From Candidatus Zhuqueibacterota bacterium (GTDB taxonomy: Bacteria; Zhuqueibacterota; Zhuqueibacteria; Residuimicrobiales; Residuimicrobiaceae), in contig CAUJEL010000004.1 in NCBI GenBank assembly GCA_963169875.1, positions 1 to 48,399 of the forward strand: 48,399 bases of DNA. The letters are read 5' to 3'. The notes under the pieces were generated by a model, which worked only from the letters and a program-made list of their open reading frames with translations, had not been told where the DNA came from and ran no database searches. A program made the position numbers and the translations under genes. This document shows positions 4,528-39,702 of this stretch, one piece after another (position 1 is the stretch's first letter; the number at the start of each line of letters is the position of its first letter).

Positions 4528-5111
4528 TGGACGAATACCGGCTGCATCAACAAATAAAATTCATCCTGGAGATCGATAAACTCAAACAGGTGCTGCGGCA
4601 GACCTATGTGCTGCAGGAGAGGCGCCGCGAGAATTCCGCGGAACACAGCTGGCAGTTGGCGCTCATGGCCACGTTGCTTGCCGAATACTGCACCGCGCCG
4701 GTGGACGTGCTGCACGTAATCCGCATGGTGCTGGTGCACGACATCGTCGAGATCGATGCCGGCGATACCTATTGCTACGGCGATCAGTCCGGCAAGAGCG
4801 ACAGGGAGGAGGCCGCGGCGCAGCGATTGTTCGGCCTCCTGCCGCACGATCAGGCCGAAGAGATGGCGGCGTTGTGGCGCGAATTCGAGGCGCGTGAGAC
4901 CATGGAGGCGCGCTACGCCGCGGCGTTGGACCGGCTCATGCCCATGCTCCTCAACTATCACACAGAAGGCCAATCATGGCGGGAACATGGCGTGAGCAAA
5001 GACCAGGTCATCGCCCGCAACCAGCATATCGCCGAAGCCGCGCCGGAGTTGTGGACGTTCGCACGTAATATGATTGAAGATGCCGTGCGAAGAGGGTATC
5101 TGCTGCCCTAG
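4524..5111 (+). CDS. HD-domain phosphohydrolase (YfbR/HDDC2-like)
   Basis: A 195-residue protein of the HD superfamily. The metal-binding residues are visible as the His in ENSAEHSW, the HD pair in MVLVHDIVEIDAGD and the later Asp in AAALDRLMPML. The order and length match YfbR/HDDC2-type 5'-deoxynucleotidases, which dephosphorylate deoxynucleoside monophosphates. Substrate identity is inferred only from the family. The ATG overlaps the stop of the aminopeptidase gene by 4 bases (ATGA), which indicates translational coupling. A second ATG directly follows at 4527, so one residue of the start is uncertain. Confidence 0.85.
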   Translation: MMDEYRLHQQIKFILEIDKLKQVLRQTYVLQERRRENSAEHSWQLALMATLLAEYCTAPVDVLHVIRMVLVHDIVEIDAGDTYCYGDQSGKSDREEAAAQRLFGLLPHDQAEEMAALWREFEARETMEARYAAALDRLMPMLLNYHTEGQSWREHGVSKDQVIARNQHIAEAAPELWTFARNMIEDAVRRGYLLP

Positions 5112-5387
5112 TGTGATCTGCTCATAAACCGCCAAGCCGTTTCTTTTATGAGGATACAACAAGTTTTTATTGAAATACTATCCCGGTTTTACAAGCTGCT
5201 GTCGATGCTGTTTTGCTGTTTTCTTTTCTTTGCGATACTCTGCGTCCCAGGCGGTGTATAATTCAGGCTGGATAATTTTGTTGATTTTATTTGTTTCTTT
5301 TATTACTTTCAAAAATAATCCAGACTACCCCGGTTTTTCAACAGATGCACCTGCCGTTTGTAAACTTTTCTGATCGATCTCACTTGG

Positions 5388-27902: not shown

Positions 27903-28859
27903 TTATTTCTTCATCATGGTCAACAGCCGGTCAACGCGCGCATGGAGGTCATTATGGTGGCGGAGGTTTTCAACCCACGCTTGTGGTATTCCCGTGAAAC
28001 CAAACCTCGCTCCGAGTATTGCTCCGGCTACCGCGGCGTTGGTGTCAGCATCGCCGCCCTCATGTATGACTGATAGAATGCCTTGACGGTAAGTGGAGGG
28101 GTGCAGCAAGGCCCAAATGCCTGCAGCCATTGCTTTCAGCGTGTATCCAATAGCATCCGGTTCATCCAGGCGCAGTGCGGTGATATCCGGCTGTGATGCC
28201 CGGTCCATGTACTCCCTTACTCCGGGATCGTACGTGTCAGCGCGGGCCGACAAGTCGTGCAAGAGAACGTCCATGGCTGTGGTGTTGTGGAGCAATGATC
28301 TGATCGCCAGACACACAACAACACAAGAAGCCACACATCTGGGATCATAGTGCGTGATCTTGCACACGGCCTCCGCATTCCTTCTGACGGCCTCCGGCGA
28401 CGCGTTCTCCCACACGCCGAGCACAGAGGTTCTCATGACGCCGCCGTTGGCAGCGGCCTGCTTTCCTGATGAGAGCCAGACCCGTTGTGAAGCACGATGC
28501 GGTTGGGTACAAAAATCTGATGAATACACCACAGAAGCCACTGTCGCACCGATGCCCATTCCTCCACCGGCAGCCCATTGATGAATGCGGACCGCCACAT
28601 CCAGAATATCCACCTTGCCCTTGCTCAAGAGACTGTCCAGTATGCAAAGCATCTGATCCGTATCATCTGTCCAGTCCCCCACAGCCCAGCGGCAGCGGTG
28701 TGCATCCTGTTTGATCTGTGCGTAGTGTTCCAAGCCATCGGGGTAATAAATTCTGACCTGTTGTTTGGACAGAAATTCGGTGCCCAGTCCGAGGGCGTCA
28801 CCCACGGCATGACCAAAGATAACACCTCGTACTTTATCGGAAAATTGATTACTATCCAT
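27903..28859 (-). CDS. ADP-ribosylglycohydrolase family protein (DraG/ARH-like)
   Basis: It removes ADP-ribose from proteins or small molecules using two metal ions. I start at ATG 28859 ([16 protein letters not shown]); an upstream extension of 37 residues has no family sense. The conserved sites are [11 protein letters not shown] at the start, the metal motif WTDDTDQ and the late [20 protein letters not shown]. The length of 318 residues is normal. The family includes dinitrogenase reductase-activating DraG, but nothing here points to nitrogen fixation. It lies at the 3' edge of the cassette-like region. Confidence 0.9.
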
Positions 28860-28995
28860 ACAGACTCTTCGTTGTTGGGATGAAACGTGAACGGACACCG
28901 GCCCGCAGGGTATGGGGGGCCTGGCAGTCACAGTTTTTACGGCTATGCAGTCTTGCCGTTGAAATCGCACGCCACGCCGAGCGTGGCGAGTCCAC

Positions 28996-29262
28996 TTTTT
29001 AATAAATAATAGACTTTATGAGAGTTCAGCAATTTAAAAAGTCTTAAAAGTCGGGATGAAGCGAGATAGCCATAATGCCAAGTCCTCAACATTTCCATGT
29101 GCTCTAATTTGAGTATCGGTGACTTGGAAAGCCAATAGTCACGGTCGTCTAAATCGTCGGTAGATGCACGCATCGAAAATTGCGATTTATCCGATCGTTG
29201 GAAATTATTATTGCCTGATTATTTCATAATTTTTTCTCGTATAATTTCTTTTGCGGTACAAC
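28996..29262 (-). pseudogene. Relic copy of the nucleotidyltransferase/partner cassette start
   Basis: This stretch aligns base by base with 31641-31914, which holds the start of a nucleotidyltransferase gene and its small upstream partner. In the relic the partner frame has a stop at codon 3 (ATGAAATAA), but otherwise reads on (DDLDDRDYWLSKSPI, then EMLRTWHYGYLASSRL). The nucleotidyltransferase start reads MAISLHPDF and then stops. Similarity ends near 28996, just after the position equal to DYLL of the other copy. It is a truncated, decayed duplicate and codes for nothing useful. Confidence 0.8.
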
Positions 29263-29351
29263 GTTCGGCGTTGCGGCAGCAGCGGAAAAAGCGTAAGAAT
29301 TTCAATATGACCAATGAACCAGCGGCTATCCGCACCGGCCGCTGGTTAAGC
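29256..29351 (-). other. attC-like recombination site 1 (after the DUF1593 cassette)
   Basis: On the - strand the site begins GCTTAAC (29351-29345, exact RYYYAAC) and ends GTTGTAC (29262-29256, GTTRRRY with one mismatch). Between them the 5' arm CGGC-C-GGTGCGG-A-TAGC pairs with the 3' arm with two extra bases (C and A) on the 5' side and one mismatch. A separate perfect hairpin, ggtgcggc/gccgcacc, lies just outside at 29370-29387. Confidence 0.55.
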
Positions 29352-30857: not shown

Positions 30858-30896
30858 AAGTGATTACCTCAAGTATTTTTTGTCTATCTGATAAAT

Positions 30897-30996
30897 CGCG
30901 GCGCTGAGCAATAGCCCCCGCAGGGGGCGTGTCTGCCCGAGTGCCTGGTCCCGCCTGAGCGGAGGGAAGGCTCAGACACTCGATGCCCAGCGCCGT
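30897..30996 (-). repeat. Structured leader repeat, copy A
   Basis: About 100 bp, roughly 90% identical by eye to 32984-33085. It folds as an outer stem cggcgctgagca with its near complement, an inner cccccgcaggggg hairpin and a gcctgagc hairpin. Both copies end about 40 bases before the ATG of a secreted-protein gene on the - strand. It may be a shared 5' leader or part of a long recombination site. Confidence 0.75.
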
Positions 30997-31113
30997 GATA
31001 CAACCCGAGCAACATGCAGGCTGAATCGTCTGCAGTACTCGCTTGTTCGCGAGCGCTTGCGCGAGCGAGTGCTGCCAGCAGACCCGCGCGATTTCCGAGA
31101 CGCGCAAGCGTCT

Positions 31114-31242
31114 CGGAAACGACACGGCCCACCGGTGCAGGGCGAGCGCGTCATGCACTTCAAACACATAATTTATAGCGACAGCGATACATACTCGAAA
31201 TGAGGCTGATTGCCCGGCATCCGCTGCGGCCGAGGGTTGTAC
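31114..31242 (-). other. attC-like recombination site A (after the nucleotidyltransferase cassette)
   Basis: On the - strand GTACAAC (31242-31236) opens the site and GTTTCCG (31120-31114) closes it. The 5' arm CGGCC-G-CAGCGG-A-TGCCGGGC pairs with GCCCTGCACCGGTGGGCCG, with two extrahelical bases (G and A) and two mismatches. It is a diverged sister of the site at 33107-33233. A perfect 12-bp hairpin (tttccgagacgc, loop gcaa, 31092-31119) and a larger palindrome (31029-31082) adjoin it. Confidence 0.65.
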
Positions 31243-31274: not shown

Positions 31275-31720
31275 TCAGGGCAACTTTTTAAGATCAATGA
31301 GATCTTTTTCGCGACCGCTTGCTTTCTTGTTTTTCTTTAGGTCTTTTAAATTGATGATATATACTTTCACATGATCGATTAAGGCGATTGTTTTATTTTT
31401 GAAGCATTCATCAAGTTAACACCTGAAATGCTTGTGAGAACCTCAATACGCACAGGTGCGTTTCCAAGCCTTACAATTTAGTTTTGATGCAGAAATAGAT
31501 CGGCAGATAACTCGGGAACTTTAAAACCAAATTTATCTAGAACTTTCACCATTTTTGAAGCAGTCGGTGGATTAGTTGCTATCCAGATATCGATATCCGC
31601 GGTTACACGAGGATACCCATGGTAACCTACTGCGTATCCACCTATTAATAAATAATCGACTTTATGAGAGTTCAGCAATTTCAAAAAGTCTGTGAAGTCG
31701 GGATGAAGCGAGATGGCCAT
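31275..31720 (-). pseudogene. Nucleotidyltransferase (DUF6036-like), broken by nonsense and frameshift
   Basis: From ATG 31720 the frame reads MAISLHPDFTDFLKLLNSHK and the nucleotidyltransferase core GGYAVGYHGYPR, TADIDIW. It then stops at TAA 31478-31480 after DLFLHQN. The same frame continues in sense (IVRLGNAPVRIEVLTSISGV), so a single change such as AAA to TAA explains the stop. Near 31412-31415 a one-base deletion shifts the frame. The sense resumes as TIALIDHVKVYIINLKDLKK and ends ...DLKKLP at 31275. The repaired protein would be about 148 residues, a normal size for the family. Such proteins often act as toxins or in phage defence with a small partner; this one must be inactive. Confidence 0.88.
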
Positions 31721-31873
31721 AATTCAAAGTCCTCAACATTTCAATGTTTCCAGTCTTTTTATTGGTGATTTCGAAAACCAATAATTACGATCGTCTAAAT
31801 CGTCTGTTAATGCATTTATCGAAAATTGCGATTTATCCAAACGTTGGAAATTCTGATTCCCTGATTTTTTCAT
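31662..31873 (-). pseudogene. Small partner gene of the nucleotidyltransferase, frameshifted
   Basis: From ATG 31873 the frame gives MKKSGNQNFQRLDKSQFSIN, then DDLDDRNYWFSKSPIKRLET, and a stop at 31733 (46 residues). Compared with the relic at 29.1 kb, one base is missing before ATGTTGAGG. Restoring it extends the protein as MLRTLNYGHLASSRLHRLFE and IAELS to a stop at 31662. This is the usual shape of the short proteins that precede DUF6036 nucleotidyltransferases (YWL-S/A-K-(S/T)P...RLE...YG...RL...FE). Its end overlaps the nucleotidyltransferase start by about 60 bases, as expected for a coupled pair. Confidence 0.75.
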
Positions 31874-31908
31874 ATTTCTTTCTCTAATAATTTTAAGTTT
31901 ACTTTGCG

Positions 31909-32104
31909 GTACAATGGATGGCGGCTAAGCTGCCGCATGATCAATTTCAATTAACCACAAAACGAAACAAGTTTATGCTGAAAACCAAATTTATTTCTCT
32001 TAACCAACGAGGTACTGAAAAGCAAACTATAAAAGCGAAAAACCACCATTAGCAATGTTGATTGCACCCACGCTCATCTGGTCAGCTTGAGCCGCTGGTT
32101 ATAC
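31909..32104 (-). other. attC-like recombination site 2 (after the secreted-unknown cassette)
   Basis: On the - strand GTATAAC (32104-32098) and ATTGTAC (31915-31909) are the outer boxes. The 5' arm GCGGCT-C-AAGCTG-A-CC pairs with the 3' arm GG-CAGCTT-AGCCGC. This leaves exactly two unpaired bases, C and A, 6 bp apart, on the 5' side. That is the extrahelical-base pattern that marks the attC bottom strand. The variable loop between the arms is about 145 bases, AT-rich and non-coding. Confidence 0.7.
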
Positions 32105-32984
32105 GGCACTGTTATTTATCACTTCTCATCGGAGGTAAGCGCCTCCTATGAGACTGTATCCAAATTGAAAACTCGAAGGTCCTAATATCATTCCATTAAC
32201 CAGAGGATGAACACCTTTAAATTTCCAGGTGGCATCATCCTCGCATAACTGTTCCTGATGTCCAGCGAAAGCTACTCGAACAATACTCATTACGCCAGAT
32301 TTTGCAGGTGGGATAATTACCTGCATACCATTTGATCCAAAGCCTTCGACACTTCGAGTAGGCATACATTCGCAGACTACACTAAATCCGCTGACATGAA
32401 TAGATCCAATCCACTTGCCTTCTGAATTCTTGCGAAGTCGCACATCTCCATAGCTAGCATAGTGACCTTTATTGCGCATATAACCAACATACATGCTATC
32501 GGGCATCCAACATTCCAAAGCCAGAAATGGTTTTCCTTGACCCAGTTCATTCGTCGAATCTGACTGTGCTACACGAGCAAACCATAAAGCCATAGCTCCA
32601 TTTTCAGGCCATTGGGGTGTGCGTCCGTCTATATCAAATGTTTTCATTTTGACGATTTCAAGAAATGAAATGCCCCAATCCGCATGTGCCGGATATTTAC
32701 TTAAATGTTCCTTTGCCCAAGGTATTTGTTCAACAGCAAGCTCATTAACTGTAATGAACCGCAGAAACGATGGAATTTTCTCTTTGACAGTTAATGGATC
32801 AAATAATAAATAACTGACAATCTCTTCAGGCCCATCCACAACCCATTTCGTTTGTGCACCTTCTGGAAGTGATAGATTCTGAGCAGTAGCATTTACAGCT
32901 AGCAAAAAAGAGAACATAAAAGAAACCAATAAAAATAATTTCTTCATACCTTCCTCATTTCAGTTGTTGCAGTGCCGTATAATC
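32097..32984. repeat. 15-bp inverted repeats flanking the secreted-unknown gene
   Basis: GGTTATACGGCACTG (32097-32111) and CAGTGCCGTATAATC (32970-32984) are inverted copies with one mismatch. They fall at the outer edge of an attC-like site on one side and at the end of the structured repeat on the other. They may reflect shared core boxes rather than a transposon. Confidence 0.6.
32126..32947 (-). CDS. Exported protein of unknown function
   Basis: A 273-residue protein with a signal peptide (MKKLFLLVSFMFSFLLAVNA, ending TAQ). I do not recognise the family. The mature part is rich in Trp and Met, has the phrases WMPDSMYVGYMRNKGHYASY and GSIHVSGFSVVCECMP, and three cysteines that could form a disulphide. 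It is AT-rich compared with the chromosome core. It lies between the structured repeat copy B and an attC-like site, and 15-bp inverted repeats flank it (32097-32111 and 32970-32984, one mismatch). It looks like a single-gene cassette. Confidence 0.7.
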   Translation of the reverse strand: MKKLFLLVSFMFSFLLAVNATAQNLSLPEGAQTKWVVDGPEEIVSYLLFDPLTVKEKIPSFLRFITVNELAVEQIPWAKEHLSKYPAHADWGISFLEIVKMKTFDIDGRTPQWPENGAMALWFARVAQSDSTNELGQGKPFLALECWMPDSMYVGYMRNKGHYASYGDVRLRKNSEGKWIGSIHVSGFSVVCECMPTRSVEGFGSNGMQVIIPPAKSGVMSIVRVAFAGHQEQLCEDDATWKFKGVHPLVNGMILGPSSFQFGYSLIGGAYLR

Positions 32985-33085
32985 GCGGCGCTGAGCAGCA
33001 GCCCCCGCAGGGGGCGTGTCTGCTCGAGTGCCTGGTTCAGCCTGAGCGGAGCGAAGGCTCAGGCACTCGATGCTCAGCGCCGCGA
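32984..33085 (-). repeat. Structured leader repeat, copy B
   Basis: Sister of 30897-30996, with the outer stem cggcgctgagca/tgctcagcgccg complete here (12 bp). The same internal cccccgcaggggg and gcctgagc hairpins are present. It lies 37 bases before the ATG of the secreted-unknown gene. Confidence 0.75.
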
Positions 33086-33106
33086 TTCAGCCCGAGCAAC
33101 GCGATG

Positions 33107-33233
33107 GCTGAACAAGACGGCCCACCGGTGCAGGGCAACGCCAGGTTTGGTTTTACGTTTATATTTTGAACTCTGCGGTACCAACTATAAAAGAAAACGA
33201 TAGCCCTGCATCCGGTGCGGCCGAGGGTTGGGA
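33107..33233 (-). other. attC-like recombination site B (after the HTH/nucleotidyltransferase cassette)
   Basis: On the - strand TCCCAAC (33233-33227) opens the site and GTTCAGC (33113-33107) closes it. The 5' arm CGGCC-G-CACCGG-A-TGCAGGGC pairs with GCCCTGCACCGGTGGGCCG without mismatch: 5 bp, extra G, 6 bp, extra A, 8 bp. Two extrahelical bases on the same arm, 6 bp apart, match the attC architecture closely. The loop is about 65 bases. Confidence 0.75.
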
Positions 33234-33235
33234 AA

Positions 33236-33769
33236 TTATCGTGACAATTTATTATTAAATATCAAAAACTCTGAAGATTTGTTTTCAACACGCGACCATC
33301 TTTCAATTTCCGCGATATTTATTTTATTTTCAGTGGCAACCATTACAGCCTGTTCAAGACATTGCAGGTCATTCCAATGATAGAATCCTGCTAATCTGTC
33401 TTTTACGCAGTCAGTCGGGGATAACAAGGCAAGTGAACCGGTGCTAAAATTAATTGTCACAATTTCTTTGGCAGGTTCACTTCCAATGGATAGAGGACCA
33501 GCAGGAAATTCGACAATGAATTTTGAAAGTGGGTTCTTGAAATAACGATTTTCTTCATGAAATCCAATTTCTGCAAGTGCTAAACGAATCTTATTTCGAT
33601 TTGATGAGATATTTTCGATAAAATCAAGATCAAAGGACTGGTAGCGGTTGGAGGAGTAAATCGAGACGCATGCCCCTCCAGAGAGTACACAATGAATATC
33701 ACATTTATTTAGATGCGACCAAACGAAAGCCGCTAATTCTGCCAAGGACATATGCTCGATAGGCTTCAT
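33236..33769 (-). CDS. Nucleotidyltransferase-like protein paired with an HTH regulator
   Basis: A 177-residue protein of the nucleotidyltransferase-fold type found in AbiEii/DUF6036-like systems. The GG...D-x-D core reads VLSGGACVSIYSSNRYQSFD, then LDFIE. A later conserved phrase is LLSPTDCVKDRLAGFYHWND. Such proteins act as toxins, or modify tRNA or proteins, in toxin-antitoxin and phage-defence modules. Its ATG overlaps the stop of the HTH gene by 4 bases (ATGA). The stop lies 3 bases from an attC-like site. It seems intact, unlike the related pair at 31.3-31.9 kb. Confidence 0.8.
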   Translation of the reverse strand: MKPIEHMSLAELAAFVWSHLNKCDIHCVLSGGACVSIYSSNRYQSFDLDFIENISSNRNKIRLALAEIGFHEENRYFKNPLSKFIVEFPAGPLSIGSEPAKEIVTINFSTGSLALLSPTDCVKDRLAGFYHWNDLQCLEQAVMVATENKINIAEIERWSRVENKSSEFLIFNNKLSR

Positions 33770-34095
33770 ACAGGTTTGCCTTTTCTTCGAGGCCTTTTTC
33801 TATCCATTTGCAGCGAAGCTTGCTCATCTTTAGGCAAGAATTCGAAGGTTTTTTTAAAGAGGGATTCAAGCTCAGTCTTGAAGGGATAGCGGGGATTGAT
33901 TGCATAGATGATGGTTTTACCCACACTACGGCTAAATAGAATGCCACCGTTTTCAAGACGTTCAAGTTGTTTTTGAATTTGGCTCAAGTCGGTGTTGTAA
34001 TAACGCGATATTTCTCTCGCATATCCCTCTTTGCGAAATACAAGATATAAAAGTATACGTTCACGATTTGTTGAACCTAAGATCGCTTCTAGCAT
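33766..34095 (-). CDS. Winged-helix regulator, probable antitoxin
   Basis: A 109-residue protein with an ArsR/MarR-like winged helix-turn-helix (ILGSTNRERILLYLVF, AREISRYYNTDLSQIQKQLE, RLENGGILFSRSVG) and a basic tail (MDRKRPRRKGKPV). Its position before a nucleotidyltransferase, with translational coupling, is that of AbiEi-type or similar antitoxins that repress their own operon. Two copies of a TGACC-N8-AGGTSA palindrome lie directly upstream and overlap the RBS (AGAGGT). That makes autoregulation likely. Confidence 0.82.
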   Translation of the reverse strand: MLEAILGSTNRERILLYLVFRKEGYAREISRYYNTDLSQIQKQLERLENGGILFSRSVGKTIIYAINPRYPFKTELESLFKKTFEFLPKDEQASLQMDRKRPRRKGKPV

Positions 34096-34097
34096 AA

Positions 34098-34164
34098 TGA
34101 CCTCTTATATAGGTGATATGACCACAATAATAGGTCAATATAATCATTTTATTATAGAATGCAA
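34098..34164 (-). promoter_or_regulatory. Cassette-borne promoter with a doubled operator
   Basis: On the - strand TTGCAT (34164-34159) and TATATT (34142-34137) are 16 bases apart. Directly downstream are two palindromes of the same form in + strand reading: TGACC-N8-AGGTGA (34098-34116) and TGACC-N8-AGGTCA (34119-34137). Their starts are 21 bp apart, two helical turns. The first overlaps the RBS of the HTH gene and the second overlaps the -10 box. This is a typical autoregulated toxin-antitoxin control region. Confidence 0.7.
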
Positions 34165-34173
34165 TTGATTTTT

Positions 34174-34299
34174 CCAACGAAAAGTGTCACCTGCCGGCGC
34201 CGCTCAAAAAGTTGCCATAAAATAACAAAGCCTTTCTTATTGTGCAATAAATTGGACAAATGAAAGGCGGTGCCGGTCAGGTGAACACATGGGTTGGGC
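34174..34299 (-). other. attC-like recombination site D (best match)
   Basis: On the - strand the site begins GCCCAAC (34299-34293, exact RYYYAAC). Its 3' box is GTTGGAA (GTTRRRY except the last base). The 5' arm GTGT-T-CACCTG-A-CCGGC pairs with GCCGG-CAGGTG-ACAC: two extrahelical bases, T and A, 6 bp apart on the 5' arm. Outside them CCAAC pairs with GTTGG. An unpaired spacer lies between the arms and the boxes, as in attC sites. It follows the DUF4258/YgiT-like pair by 10 bases. Confidence 0.78.
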
Positions 34300-34309
34300 G
34301 AACTGATGA

Positions 34310-34525
34310 TCACGAAAACTCAAAAACTGGAGTCTTAATAGTTCTTTGGGGCTTTGGATTTCCAAGAATAAGTTTTTGAATTTTTTCGACGGCTTTGGGA
34401 GAAAAAAATTGCTCCCCTGTCTCTTTATTAACTCTCGCTGGGACATTTTCAATGATGATAAATTTGCCATCCTTGAAAATCGAATAGGTTACTTTTTCAT
34501 CAATTAAAAGTTCTTCTCTTACCAT
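34310..34525 (-). CDS. YgiT/MqsA-like small protein, probable antitoxin
   Basis: A 71-residue protein beginning MVREELLIDEKVTYSIFKDG and carrying the phrase ENVPARVNKETGEQFFSP. This aligns with YgiT-type antitoxins, in which the same place reads VPA-x-VC-xx-CGE-x-YFSP. The zinc cysteines are replaced here (VNKETGE), so it would not bind zinc. GTAGGAGA lies 8 bases before the ATG at 34525. The gene starts inside the last codons of DUF4258 (26-base overlap), which is usual for DUF4258/YgiT pairs. Confidence 0.78.
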   Translation of the reverse strand: MVREELLIDEKVTYSIFKDGKFIIIENVPARVNKETGEQFFSPKAVEKIQKLILGNPKPQRTIKTPVFEFS

Positions 34526-34835
34526 TGTATTGTCTCCTACGTATCTTAAAATCGATCCAATCATCACAGTTTGGTTCGTACAACGTAATAATTTTTAAAA
34601 TTGGACGAGTTGGGTAACTGCAATGAATATGTAAAGGACGATTTCTTTTTGTATATCCAAATATCAGGCAACTTGGGCCGTATTTATCCTTTGGATAATC
34701 CTCTATTATTTCACCATTTAAGAAAGCTTGGCGTATTTCCTCTACCCGAATATTTTGCAGAATAGATTGGTCAGCTGCATGTTTTGAAAACTCAAAATCA
34801 TCTCTTAATACTTTATTTTGAATATCCAGGAACAT
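34500..34835 (-). CDS. DUF4258 protein, probable RelE-superfamily toxin
   Basis: A 111-residue protein. It matches DUF4258: FSKHAADQSILQNIRVEEIR near the start, then GEIIEDYPKDKYGPSCLIFG, RPLHIHCSYP and KIITLYEPN. DUF4258 proteins are related to RelE-type mRNA interferases and pair with YgiT-like antitoxins. Here the toxin gene precedes the antitoxin gene, the order seen in mqsRA-like modules. There is no strong RBS. It forms a two-gene cassette with the next gene and the attC-like site D. Confidence 0.8.
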   Translation of the reverse strand: MFLDIQNKVLRDDFEFSKHAADQSILQNIRVEEIRQAFLNGEIIEDYPKDKYGPSCLIFGYTKRNRPLHIHCSYPTRPILKIITLYEPNCDDWIDFKIRRRQYNGKRRTFN

Positions 34836-34903
34836 GTATTAATCCATTTTATTACGCTATTCAAAAATAGTTCGAAGTTTATTAATTTGCAAGTACTTCT
34901 ACC

Positions 34904-35013
34904 GCCCAACATTATATCCCGGATTCTGTGTTATCAAGTGTAACCGGTAACCCGAAGGGTGGTAGAATTCCGGATAGGTTTGCCCGTTAACACCGAATCC
35001 GAGTATATTAACC
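34904..35013 (-). other. Candidate attC-like site F (weak)
   Basis: On the - strand an exact GTTGGGC box (34910-34904, GTTRRRY) sits just before the DUF4258 cassette. A 13-base arm ggattctgtgtta (34921-34933) is matched in inverted form at 34988-35000 (taacaccgaatcc) with one mismatch. The opposite box is not clear and the two-extra-base pattern is missing. The rest of 34836-35261 is non-coding, with a smaller palindrome caatagccg/cgcctattg near 35116-35159. Confidence 0.4.
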
Positions 35014-35261: not shown

Positions 35262-35789
35262 TCACTCACGGGGTAGAATACCATAATTATTGTGCAGGCC
35301 GCTGAGGTGGTGAAGTATATGTCCGGCCATGAGGAAAGCCAGGGCACGCGCCGACACGGTCTTGCCGCTGGCTGTGCCCCTGCGTTCCCAGTTTTGCCCG
35401 TCAAAAGTACGCAGCAGCATCAGATTCACCCGACGCACCGCGACGAGTTCTGCGCACAGCTCTGCCAACTCGCGATTTGCGTAATTCGAATGGTCAACAT
35501 AGCCATTTTCGTCAAAAGAGGGCAGGGGTGCGGTTTCGCCGCGGCTGATGCAGAGCGCTCTGTAGCCAAACACCCACTCCCCATCGATCATATGGCCGAA
35601 TACCTCGCGGATGCTCCATTTGCCTTCAGCGTATCGATACTTTTCGCGCTCAGCGGAAACCGCTGCGGCGTACTTTTGGATGGTTTCAATCTGTTTCTCC
35701 AGAATCGATAAAATATCGGTTCCGGGGACCAGTGAGACGTATTTTTCATAGTAAGGGGCATATTCATCAGCGGCGGGTCGATGTGTCAT
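35262..35789 (-). CDS. DinB-family metalloprotein
   Basis: A 175-residue four-helix-bundle protein of the DinB/YfiT type. The metal-binding histidines can be seen in REVFGHMIDGEWVFGYRALC and in MAGHILHHLSGLHNNYG. Members are thiol-dependent S-transferases or hydrolases; the substrate here is unknown. I start at ATG 35789, which has AAGGAG 10 bases upstream; an upstream start would place the RBS within the gene. It is the first gene of the - strand accessory block. The gap 35814-36012 beyond it shows nothing recognisable. Confidence 0.85.
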   Translation of the reverse strand: MTHRPAADEYAPYYEKYVSLVPGTDILSILEKQIETIQKYAAAVSAEREKYRYAEGKWSIREVFGHMIDGEWVFGYRALCISRGETAPLPSFDENGYVDHSNYANRELAELCAELVAVRRVNLMLLRTFDGQNWERRGTASGKTVSARALAFLMAGHILHHLSGLHNNYGILPRE

Positions 35790-36012
35790 GGGGTGTTTTC
35801 TCCTTATGATCATTGGTTGAGCCTAATGAAGCCAATGATTCTCTGCCTTCGACAGGCTCAGACCGCAAGCGGCATCGCCTGCTGTTTGCAGCGACGCGGA
35901 GCATCACGGCCGGGTTTGCCACAGACATCACCGCAAGTCGACGAGTCTGGTCTACCTACGTCAATGTCATTTCAACAAATATTTTACCTTACTGCAGGAC
36001 AATACCCCACGA

Positions 36013-36318: not shown

Positions 36319-39300
36319 CTATGGCTCATCCACGACGATCCTGCGCACATCCCCCAGCCGCTCGGTGCGGCCTCTGTGATCGAAATAGCCCAGCATCGGC
36401 ACCGCATACTTGCGCGAGGTGCCCAATAACTCGCGGAATTCGCCAACGGTTATCTCCTCTTTACTCCGTCCGAACGCCACCAGTTTTTCTTCCGCTTCAT
36501 CGAGAACACTCTGCAGAAAGAAAAAATCTCCCTCGAGGCGCACCACCCGCCCCATGCCCTGCAGCGCGCCGAGGATACGGCGCACGTCCGCAACCGGAAT
36601 CGCCAGGGCTTTCGCCAGCTCGGCCTCTTCCGGTGGCGAAAAAGGCGATGCCCCCAGCTGCGCCACAATCTGCCCGGCTCGTTTTTCATCGGCGGGACTC
36701 ATGCGAATCTCGTGCTGCGCCAGCTTGACCCACTGTGGCTGCTCAACAACCTCTCCTCGGTTCACCAGGTCCGCCAGGGCCATTTCAAACAGTTTGGGTG
36801 TTACGCCCTGGCCCATGGCGGCGCGCAGTTCGGCCTTGCCCATGCCGGGCCGCAGCGGTTCGCGCTCATGAAATGCCTCTAATGCCGTCCTGATCAGCAT
36901 CTGCAAGCGCTCATAGCCTTGCAGATGTAAAAAAGCCCGGCGGCCAGCCAGGGTCAATGCCATCACCTGATTCTTTTCCAGGCACTGCTCCAGGACGGTG
37001 TGTACTATTTCCGGTGCCAGTCCGCTGATCGCCTGTAATTCGGATTCGTTCAACGGACTGAAAGGCCGGCTGAGCAGGGTGGAGGTGATGATCTCCAAAG
37101 GATCGGGATTTTCCAGGCTGCGCAAGCGGGTGAGGACCCCGGCATCGAAGCGCCGGTGCGGCTGCGGCGACGTATCGAGCACGATGCCGCCGCCGATGCT
37201 GTAGGCGGGCGAATAGTGGCGGATGACAAAGGGATCGCGGCGCATGGCCACGGCGGGCTCTTCCAGCAGCAGTTGCACCAGTGCGGTCTGACCGGGCTGC
37301 AAACGCTCGCTTTCCAGCAGTTTGACGCGCGCCAGGATCTCACGCGTGCCGAGATGCAGCCGTACCCGGCTGCGGTTGAGGAGTTCCTTGCGCGCGTTTT
37401 TGAGCAGATGCAGCCGCCCGTCCATCAGGGTCGTGGCTGTGAACTGTCCCGGCGTGGCGAGCACATCACCGCGCTGGATTTCTTCCTTGCTGATGTTCTG
37501 CAGATTGATGGCGGCGCGATTGCCGATGGTGATCTCGTTCACTGTATCGCCGTGCTGCTGCAATCCGCGCACCTTGACCAGCCGTCCCTCGGGGAGCAGT
37601 TCGAGCATTTCGCCGATACGGGCCCGGCCCGAGAGCACAGATCCGGTTGCCACCGTGCCAAATCCCTTGATGACAAAAGAGCGGTCCACGGGCAGCCAGA
37701 AGACGCCGCGATCCGGCCTCGCTTCAGTCGTGCCGGCCAGCTGCAGCAGGGCCGCGCGCAGCTGGTCGATGCCTGCGCCAGTGGTGGAAGAAACTGGATA
37801 GACCGGCGCTTTTTCCAGGAATGTGCCGCGTACGCTCTCCCGCACGTCCTGCTGCACCAGATCGAGCAGATCCGCATCGACCAGATCGATCTTGGTGAGA
37901 ACAATGATGCCGCGTTTGAGTTGCAGCAGGGAGAGAATATCGAGGTGCTCGCGCGTCTGCGGCATGACCCCGTCGTCCGCGGCGATGACCAGCATGGCCA
38001 GATCGACCGTGCTGATGCCGGCGACCATGTTTTTGATAAAGCGCTCGTGCCCCGGCACATCGATGAATGCGATCTCTTTGCTGAGAAATGCAAAGCCCAA
38101 ATCGATGGTCATACCCCGCTCCTGCTCTTCGATGAGCCGGTCAGGGTCTGTGCCGGTCAGGGCTTTCACCAGGGAGGATTTGCCGTGATCGATATGGCCC
38201 GCGGTGCCAATGATGATGGACATAGGCGCGCTGGATTCCTCATCCAAACCGAGACAGTCAACCAGTTCGGTATAGACCCCCGCAGTCCATCCCAGGAGCG
38301 CCGCGTTCTCCACGCCGTCAGGATGGATATGCGAACGATCCTGGGCATTGTACCAGGCCCAGGTCTCGCCGGTCTTTTCATAGACTTCCTGTACCATGCT
38401 CAGCCAGTTGGTGCCGATATCGGCGGCATCTTCCATGAGTTCGTAATCGCATAAACCCTTGATAGTGGTGTACACATAGGGCGCCTGAATCAGCGGATAA
38501 TTCCAGATCGATCCGTTGTGATCATATTTCTTATCCGTGAGCGTGCAGCCGCCCGGCGCTATGAAAGCCTTGAGGTGCTCATGCATGGACCTGGCGCGAC
38601 TCTCATCTACCATCTCCACGAAGAGCGGCATGAAACTGGCCAGCGTATGAACTTTGAATAAGGTTTTGTTTATAAAATCATTATCAAGGTAGCGACGGCT
38701 TTCCTGATCCCAACAAAGCTCCATGAGTTTTTTAAGATGTGTGGATTTTTGCAGCAGCTGTTCGTCACCATGGCCGTCGGCTTCAACCTGCAGGTCATAA
38801 ATCATTTTGGCATTGCGGCTGATCAGGGCGTTGAGATCGACGGCGTTGATATTTCTCGGATCCGTGAATCGCGGCGAATCCAGCCATCCCGATTCAGCCT
38901 GCGCCATTTTCTCCGCGGGCCATGTGCCCCCCTCCTTGACGGGATGGTAACGGTACAATCCCGTGGGCGTGGTGTGCGGTTTGCTGGTCCAGAAGCGGAA
39001 TTCATGCACCACTTCGGGCAAAACGCGGCGCAGCCACTCCTTATCGCCGGTGGCGCGATAGACATCGCGCACCATCCACGGCAGAAACGGCGGCTGCGAA
39101 TGGTTCAGCATACTGCGATGGTTGGAAGCGGGGACGTAACCCAACTTGCGCAAGAGGAAGATCAGATTTTCGACATTATGCCGCGCCGAATCGATCATTC
39201 TCATGCGCAGCAAGCCCAGGTTGATGAAATAGGTATCCCAGTAATAGAGCGCTTCGGGTTTGCCTTTTCCGGGGATGATATACGGATTCGGCACGCCCAG

Positions 39301-39393
39301 CAGATGCTCGGTGTCCTGAAGAGTTTCACGCATGCATTCTTCGCGGATGCGTTTTTTTAATTCTGGGATCAAGGAATGAAAATTTTGGCTCAT
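36319..39393 (-). CDS. selB: Trehalase-like glycosidase domain joined in frame to SelB
   Basis: One open frame of 1024 residues from ATG 39393 (GAGG 6 bases upstream). Residues 1-390 resemble the (alpha/alpha)6 glycosidases of the trehalase (GH37) group: [53 protein letters not shown]. From residue 391 the sequence is a full Sel[20 protein letters not shown] (G1), [11 protein letters not shown] (G3), LTKIDL (G4), three beta-barrel domains and the C-terminal winged helices that bind the SECIS hairpin. The SelB part alone is 634 residues, the normal length, and starts with its own ATG (38223) with GAGGAA 12 bases upstream. So this may be a true fusion or two genes where the first lacks a stop. 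SelB implies selenoprotein synthesis in this organism. Confidence 0.88.
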
Positions 39394-39702
39394 TCTCAAC
39401 CTCGCTTTGTTAATGAAGCTTGCGGTTTATTATGCCGATTTACATCGCCATGCAATATAGGGATGCCTGAACGGTATGGATACAGGCATGTAAGCCCGTA
39501 CGCATCGCCTGGGGATTGTGATTGATGGTTAAATGGGAGGTTTGTTTTTATTTGCTTCATTTCGCTATTGAGGGATCAGCTTAAAGCCCGAACACAGCTG
39601 CTTCTGTTTACAAAGTAACGCGCCCTGGTGTAAAATGCAAGATTATTTTTAATCCTTTTAACGATAATAAAAATAAAATGCTGACTCCGCTTCATCTCTG
39701 CC
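39394..39702. other. Non-coding gap
   Basis: About 310 bases, AT-rich at both ends. No gene, terminator hairpin with T-run or clear promoter is seen. Confidence 0.4.

Follow-up and report, generated by a model that had tools for sequence, protein, structure and literature searches.

The hairpin at positions 34172..34299 (minus strand) raises the question of whether it is a recombination site of an integron or a hairpin of another kind, lying as it does on a contig that encodes no integron integrase. It was studied within the window, i.e. the whole 48,399-nucleotide stretch of DNA analysed here, which is the entire contig C4 of a 5.0-Mb draft genome in 215 contigs, where contig joins are a caveat. 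A CALIN is a cluster of attC sites lacking integron-integrase (IntegronFinder; PMC9024848). The hairpin is almost certainly an attC of an integron gene cassette, located in a CALIN that the IntI integrase of this genome, whose gene is on contig C111, could serve in trans. In kind, it is an ordinary attC in a CALIN setting of a candidate-division-KSB1-like bacterium.

Sequence and fold of the target site

Read on the minus strand from 34299 to 34172, the target runs GCCCAAC-CCAT-GTGT-T-CACCTG-A-CCGGC ... GCCGG-CAGGTG-ACAC-TTTTC-GTTGGAA. The R'' (GCCCAAC, 34299-34293) and R' (GTTGGAA, 34178-34172) boxes enclose an imperfect palindrome of 128-nt span with an unpaired central spacer, a long terminal loop and extrahelical bases in one arm, namely T at position 9 and A at position 16 of the 5' arm, the 3' arm being free of bulges. 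The first-pass annotation of this DNA had described the same boxes and arm layout, which are borne out by the sequence, and had confined the extra bases to the 5' arm, which holds over the lower 15 pairs. Of the span that it gave, 34174-34299, the right end is correct but the left end should be 34172, as GTTGGAA needs 34172-34178. The exact core box that it placed at the inverse position does exist, but this is R'', which fits RYYYAAC at 7/7 positions, and not R', which fits GTTRRRY at 6/7 with GTT intact. The deviating base is the last of R', an A where a pyrimidine is expected, and it counts against the attC reading.

When the two strands were folded separately with DNA parameters, as had been proposed, both were well folded in comparison with shuffled sequences: the plus strand reached -29.2 kcal/mol (z -5.2) and the minus strand -23.9 kcal/mol (z -4.3), with 0/200 shuffles as good in either case. 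The plus strand corresponds to the attC bottom strand, i.e. the recombinogenic strand, and the bottom strand is the one preferred by integron integrases (PMC8946536). As the bulges and the cassette genes are both on the minus strand, the polarity of the target agrees with gene direction. The opposite orientation, for which R' on the plus strand would be a perfect GTTGGGC, was rejected on account of the bulges, the gene direction, the leave-one-out model and the positive controls. The target shares with attC sites (59-base elements) of sedentary chromosomal integrons the RYYYAAC/GTTRRRY boxes, the unpaired spacer, a variable terminal structure, two extrahelical bases on the 5' arm of the top strand, the directional tie to cassette genes and the G|TT exchange, and differs from them in an R' that ends in A.

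Geometry, covariation and chance expectation

A lenient stem scanner proved too permissive, with many false matches in coding DNA, and was replaced by a stricter scan and then by a fixed geometry. In the stricter scan the target ranked second in the window with a score of 49, and scores of at least 40 with equal boxes occurred at 0.017 per shuffled window. The fixed geometry, common to all good sites, places the second extrahelical base, invariably A, 15 nt from the AAC of R'' and the first one at position 9; its stems have 4, 6 and 5 pairs, and roughly 15 nt of 3' arm precede GTT. The target scores 15/15, while dinucleotide shuffling of the 48-kb window, repeated 200 times, gave no site at 14.5 or above on either strand; in eight stretches of this genome used as controls the score never exceeded 11.5, and in stretches with a dispersed repeat that are outside the array contigs it was at most 12.5. 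The geometry was derived from the sites after inspection, so the independent tests weigh more.

The same geometry was identified in two sets of positive controls, five sites adjoining the IntI of the Planctomycetota array BJHQ01000022.1 (L035) and eight adjoining the IntI of an array in the same family (G005:C6). Both arrays resemble the target in the 15 nt from AAC to the extrahelical A and in their one-sided bulges but, unlike the window array, they adjoin their integrase. The sites of both arrays have the polarity of the target and point away from intI, and the controls L035, L106 and C111 agree in polarity relative to intI. In an alignment of nine sites, comprising eight of the source genome and one of the Planctomycetota array, 10 of the 13 stem pairs have changes on both sides (compensatory), and paired cells amount to 98%, compared with 69% for shuffles; when the partner is slid by one base, pairing falls to 33-37%. 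A leave-one-out covariance model recovers the target at full length and on the minus strand only, with 32.8 bits and E 1.6e-6, E-values from such models being rough. Across the whole genome the full model finds 13 attCs on C4, C12, C41, C111, C152 and C153.

The cassette and the surrounding array

The target ends a gene cassette of 733 bp (34178..34910, minus strand), which begins with the TT after the G (34911) of the upstream R' and has the G of the target R' (34178) as its last base. It is opened by an R' box, GTTGGGC (34905..34911, minus strand), where the cassette homology described below starts. The hairpin upstream of 34905 (to ~35020), when tested as an attC, folds no better than shuffles (z -0.1) and would be a weak or degenerate attC at best. 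The cassette encodes, on the minus strand, a DUF4258 protein of 111 aa (34500..34835; Pfam PF14076, 83.6 bits) and a YgiT-like protein of 71 aa without cysteines (34310..34525; recognised by a weak TIGR03831 match below cut-off and by its translation), whose stop codon is 10 bp ahead of the target R''. Because it is paired with the YgiT-like gene, the DUF4258 protein is probably the toxin of a toxin-antitoxin pair, and the YgiT-like protein probably the antitoxin.

Every cassette gene from 35.0 to 28.9 kb is on the minus strand. The next cassette (33113..34177) carries an ArsR/TrmB-like winged-helix gene (33766-34095) and a gene (33236-33769) that appears nucleotidyltransferase-like from a reading of its sequence, without a family match. 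A second attC, TCCCAAC..GTTCAGC (33107..33233, minus strand), begins 2 bp past the stop codon of the latter and also scores 15/15; the target, put forward by the first-pass annotation as the best single candidate, is a strong site tied with this structurally equal one. The remaining sites, likewise on the minus strand, are more decayed. The site at 31114..31242 is of the same type with a decayed R' (GTTTCCG), and has 104 bits in the covariance model, of whose training set it is part, and 13/15 in a relaxed geometry. That at 31909..32104 (GTATAAC..ATTGTAC), with no GTT in its R', is a probable degenerate attC seen in the sequence and missed by the covariance model. The last attC of the array, at 29256..29351 (GCTTAAC..GTTGTAC), has a partly decayed stem and is found by both the geometry and the covariance model. 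Duplicated gene remnants (28986-29270 and 31632-31923, with blocks ~83-89% identical) follow two of the array attCs, which suggests that they are decayed duplicate cassettes.

The sites at 29256, 31114, 33107 and 34172 are within one 5-kb stretch that has no local integrase and, as contig C4 has no intI, this is not a complete integron; the array is a five- to six-site CALIN. It has at least two attCs without intI in the contig region, among chromosomal genes, as is typical of CALINs, but differs from that type in that another contig of the source genome encodes an integrase, accompanied by its own array and available in trans. Vibrio-type arrays consist of near-identical repeats, whereas the sites of the window array differ more among themselves.

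On its left flank the array is bordered by a gene (27903-28970) for which no relative was detected in five genomes of the family, and at its other edge by a DinB-family gene (35262..35813, minus strand). In G001, a genome of the same genus, the DinB gene is a core gene that neighbours SelB (contig C62), as it does in the window. Neither the covariance model nor the geometry scan identified an attC at this G001 locus, and thus the array is either specific to the window's lineage at this position or was lost in G001. In the same region of the window, the frame of a trehalase-like glycosidase continues without a stop into SelB (36319-39399; 1026 aa), while in G001 and G005 an in-frame stop (TAG and TAA, respectively) parts the two.

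Integrase encoded elsewhere in the genome

The sole IntI above the NCBIfam cut-off in the genome is on C111, with 354 bits against 265. Beside it is a divergent cassette array with attCs that reach 15/15. Its alignment with IntI4 of Vibrio cholerae (PDB 2A3V) extends across the catalytic residues R, HxxR, H and Y. Its closest named relative, at 57% identity, is from a candidate division KSB1 MAG, which is the reason for calling the host KSB1-like. IntI above the cut-off was identified in 17 of 40 sampled genomes, the source genome included. The C111 IntI (L008 5190-6500) is 436 aa long, with ~120 residues ahead of the usual integrase start; open frames of comparable length also exist in a few relatives (G039 and G017), most being 325-390 aa. 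At the same locus, the first cassette gene by intI (4700-5128) matches the PADLOC candidate defence family PDC-S43 with 102 bits.

By analogy with known integrons, the plus strand of the window (the attC bottom strand) would become single-stranded, allowing R'' to pair with R' and L'' with L', and the two extrahelical bases and the unpaired spacer would mark the strand. The IntI tyrosine recombinase would bind and cut a single strand of R' after the G of GTT, whereupon the 733-bp DUF4258/YgiT-like cassette would be joined to attI or another attC, with replicative resolution. The C111 IntI could act in trans on the C4 array, where its present-day activity is presumed. Structure, polarity, genome context and past cassette movement are demonstrated by the sequence itself; bottom-strand folding, IntI binding, cleavage and replicative resolution are inferred from established integron biology.

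Natural exchange of the cassette

The strongest evidence for the attC reading is provided by the borders of the same cassette in G001. The 733-bp segment (34910->34178) recurs there at another locus (C202:10316-11047) with 91% identity, within another small attC cluster whose neighbours are unrelated to those of the window. At the opening G|TT point the two genomes are 18% identical upstream and 85% downstream, and at the target R' they are 86% identical up to GTT and 19% beyond, so that both homology borders coincide with predicted IntI cleavage points (G|TT). For the core DNA surrounding SelB, identity between these genomes is 74%. That the cassette is more alike than the host core DNA suggests an exchange after the split of the two hosts. 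These borders show that a cassette ended by the target moved in the past; they speak for past movement rather than for mobility at present.

Alternative explanations

The main rival is that the target is a relic, a former integron site now inert after loss of the integrase and drift of R'. This is possible though rather unlikely, and it overlaps with the attC reading, whose claim concerns identity first and activity second. The absence of both intI on the contig and an integrase belonging to the array, an R' that is one base off, and the visible decay of the array sites at 31114, 31909 and 29256 all speak for a relic, and the decayed sites and missing integrase count against the preferred explanation. 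However, 15/15 scored pairs are intact in the target while its neighbours decayed, the genome encodes on another contig an IntI whose catalytic residues are intact, and the cassette has moved and is better conserved than the core DNA of its hosts.

It is highly improbable that the target is an intrinsic terminator or another RNA hairpin of the toxin-antitoxin operon, even though its position close behind a stop codon, its good fold and the four T that come after its stem on the minus strand would suit one. The first-pass annotation had dismissed a terminator partly because there was no T-run, a point that these four T correct. The target yields no terminator-like call and no Rfam match, it spans 128 nt with a long loop at its tip, it has the exact attC geometry with a box motif at either end, and sites adjoining IntI share its fold. 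There is equally little chance that it belongs to a dispersed palindromic repeat family (REP/MITE-like) unlinked to cassettes. The genome does contain a dispersed 130-nt palindromic repeat, some copies of which are flush with attC R' boxes, but a DNA search found the target to be single-copy, the 13 covariance-model matches, on six contigs, are grouped at a few cassette-bearing loci, and the cassette borders fall at G|TT on both sides; a repeat family in unrelated intergenic regions, which the annotation had named as the outcome that would speak against it, was thus not observed. Its attC interpretation is supported by every prediction open to computation: the boxes, the extrahelical bases placed as in attCs that adjoin integrases, the polarity, the IntI of the same genome, the clustering at cassette boundaries and the cassette ends in the other genome.

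Cassette modules and significance

Apart from the identity of the target as an attC, it is conceivable, though doubtful, that this lineage builds cassettes from separable modules, in which the gene pair swaps attC types with R'' as the breakpoint, and the dispersed palindromic repeat supplies the first cassette bases, joined at the IntI crossover. In another genome (L112 1501-2110; G009:C210) the same DUF4258/YgiT-like pair recurs at 79% identity with a different attC-like hairpin behind it, and homology with the window stops at R''; A-type attC sequence without the gene pair was found in G009:C168 and G004:C450. The strongly palindromic 130-nt repeat is present in some two dozen copies, full or partial, among them 32981-33113 and 30894-31025 in the window, L008 490-627 and L042 3700-3841. 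In three cassettes, at the window 33107, C111 621 and C12 3618 sites, it begins exactly at the attC crossover (G|TTCAGCC) and stands ahead of the first gene, and several copies outside arrays begin with ATTCAGCC. The repeat could be a leader of cassettes, or else an element that targets attCs.

The attC kind is well known, and a search of the open-access literature for integrons in KSB1 returned nothing relevant; neither this member nor its lineage had appeared in the literature searched. The locus adds a well-supported integron array in a KSB1-like lineage, with natural evidence that a cassette was exchanged between two genomes of the same genus. It also offers a small, checkable case of attC modules switching partners, which bears on the origin of gene cassettes, and the modular construction, if true, would be a natural trace of cassette birth.
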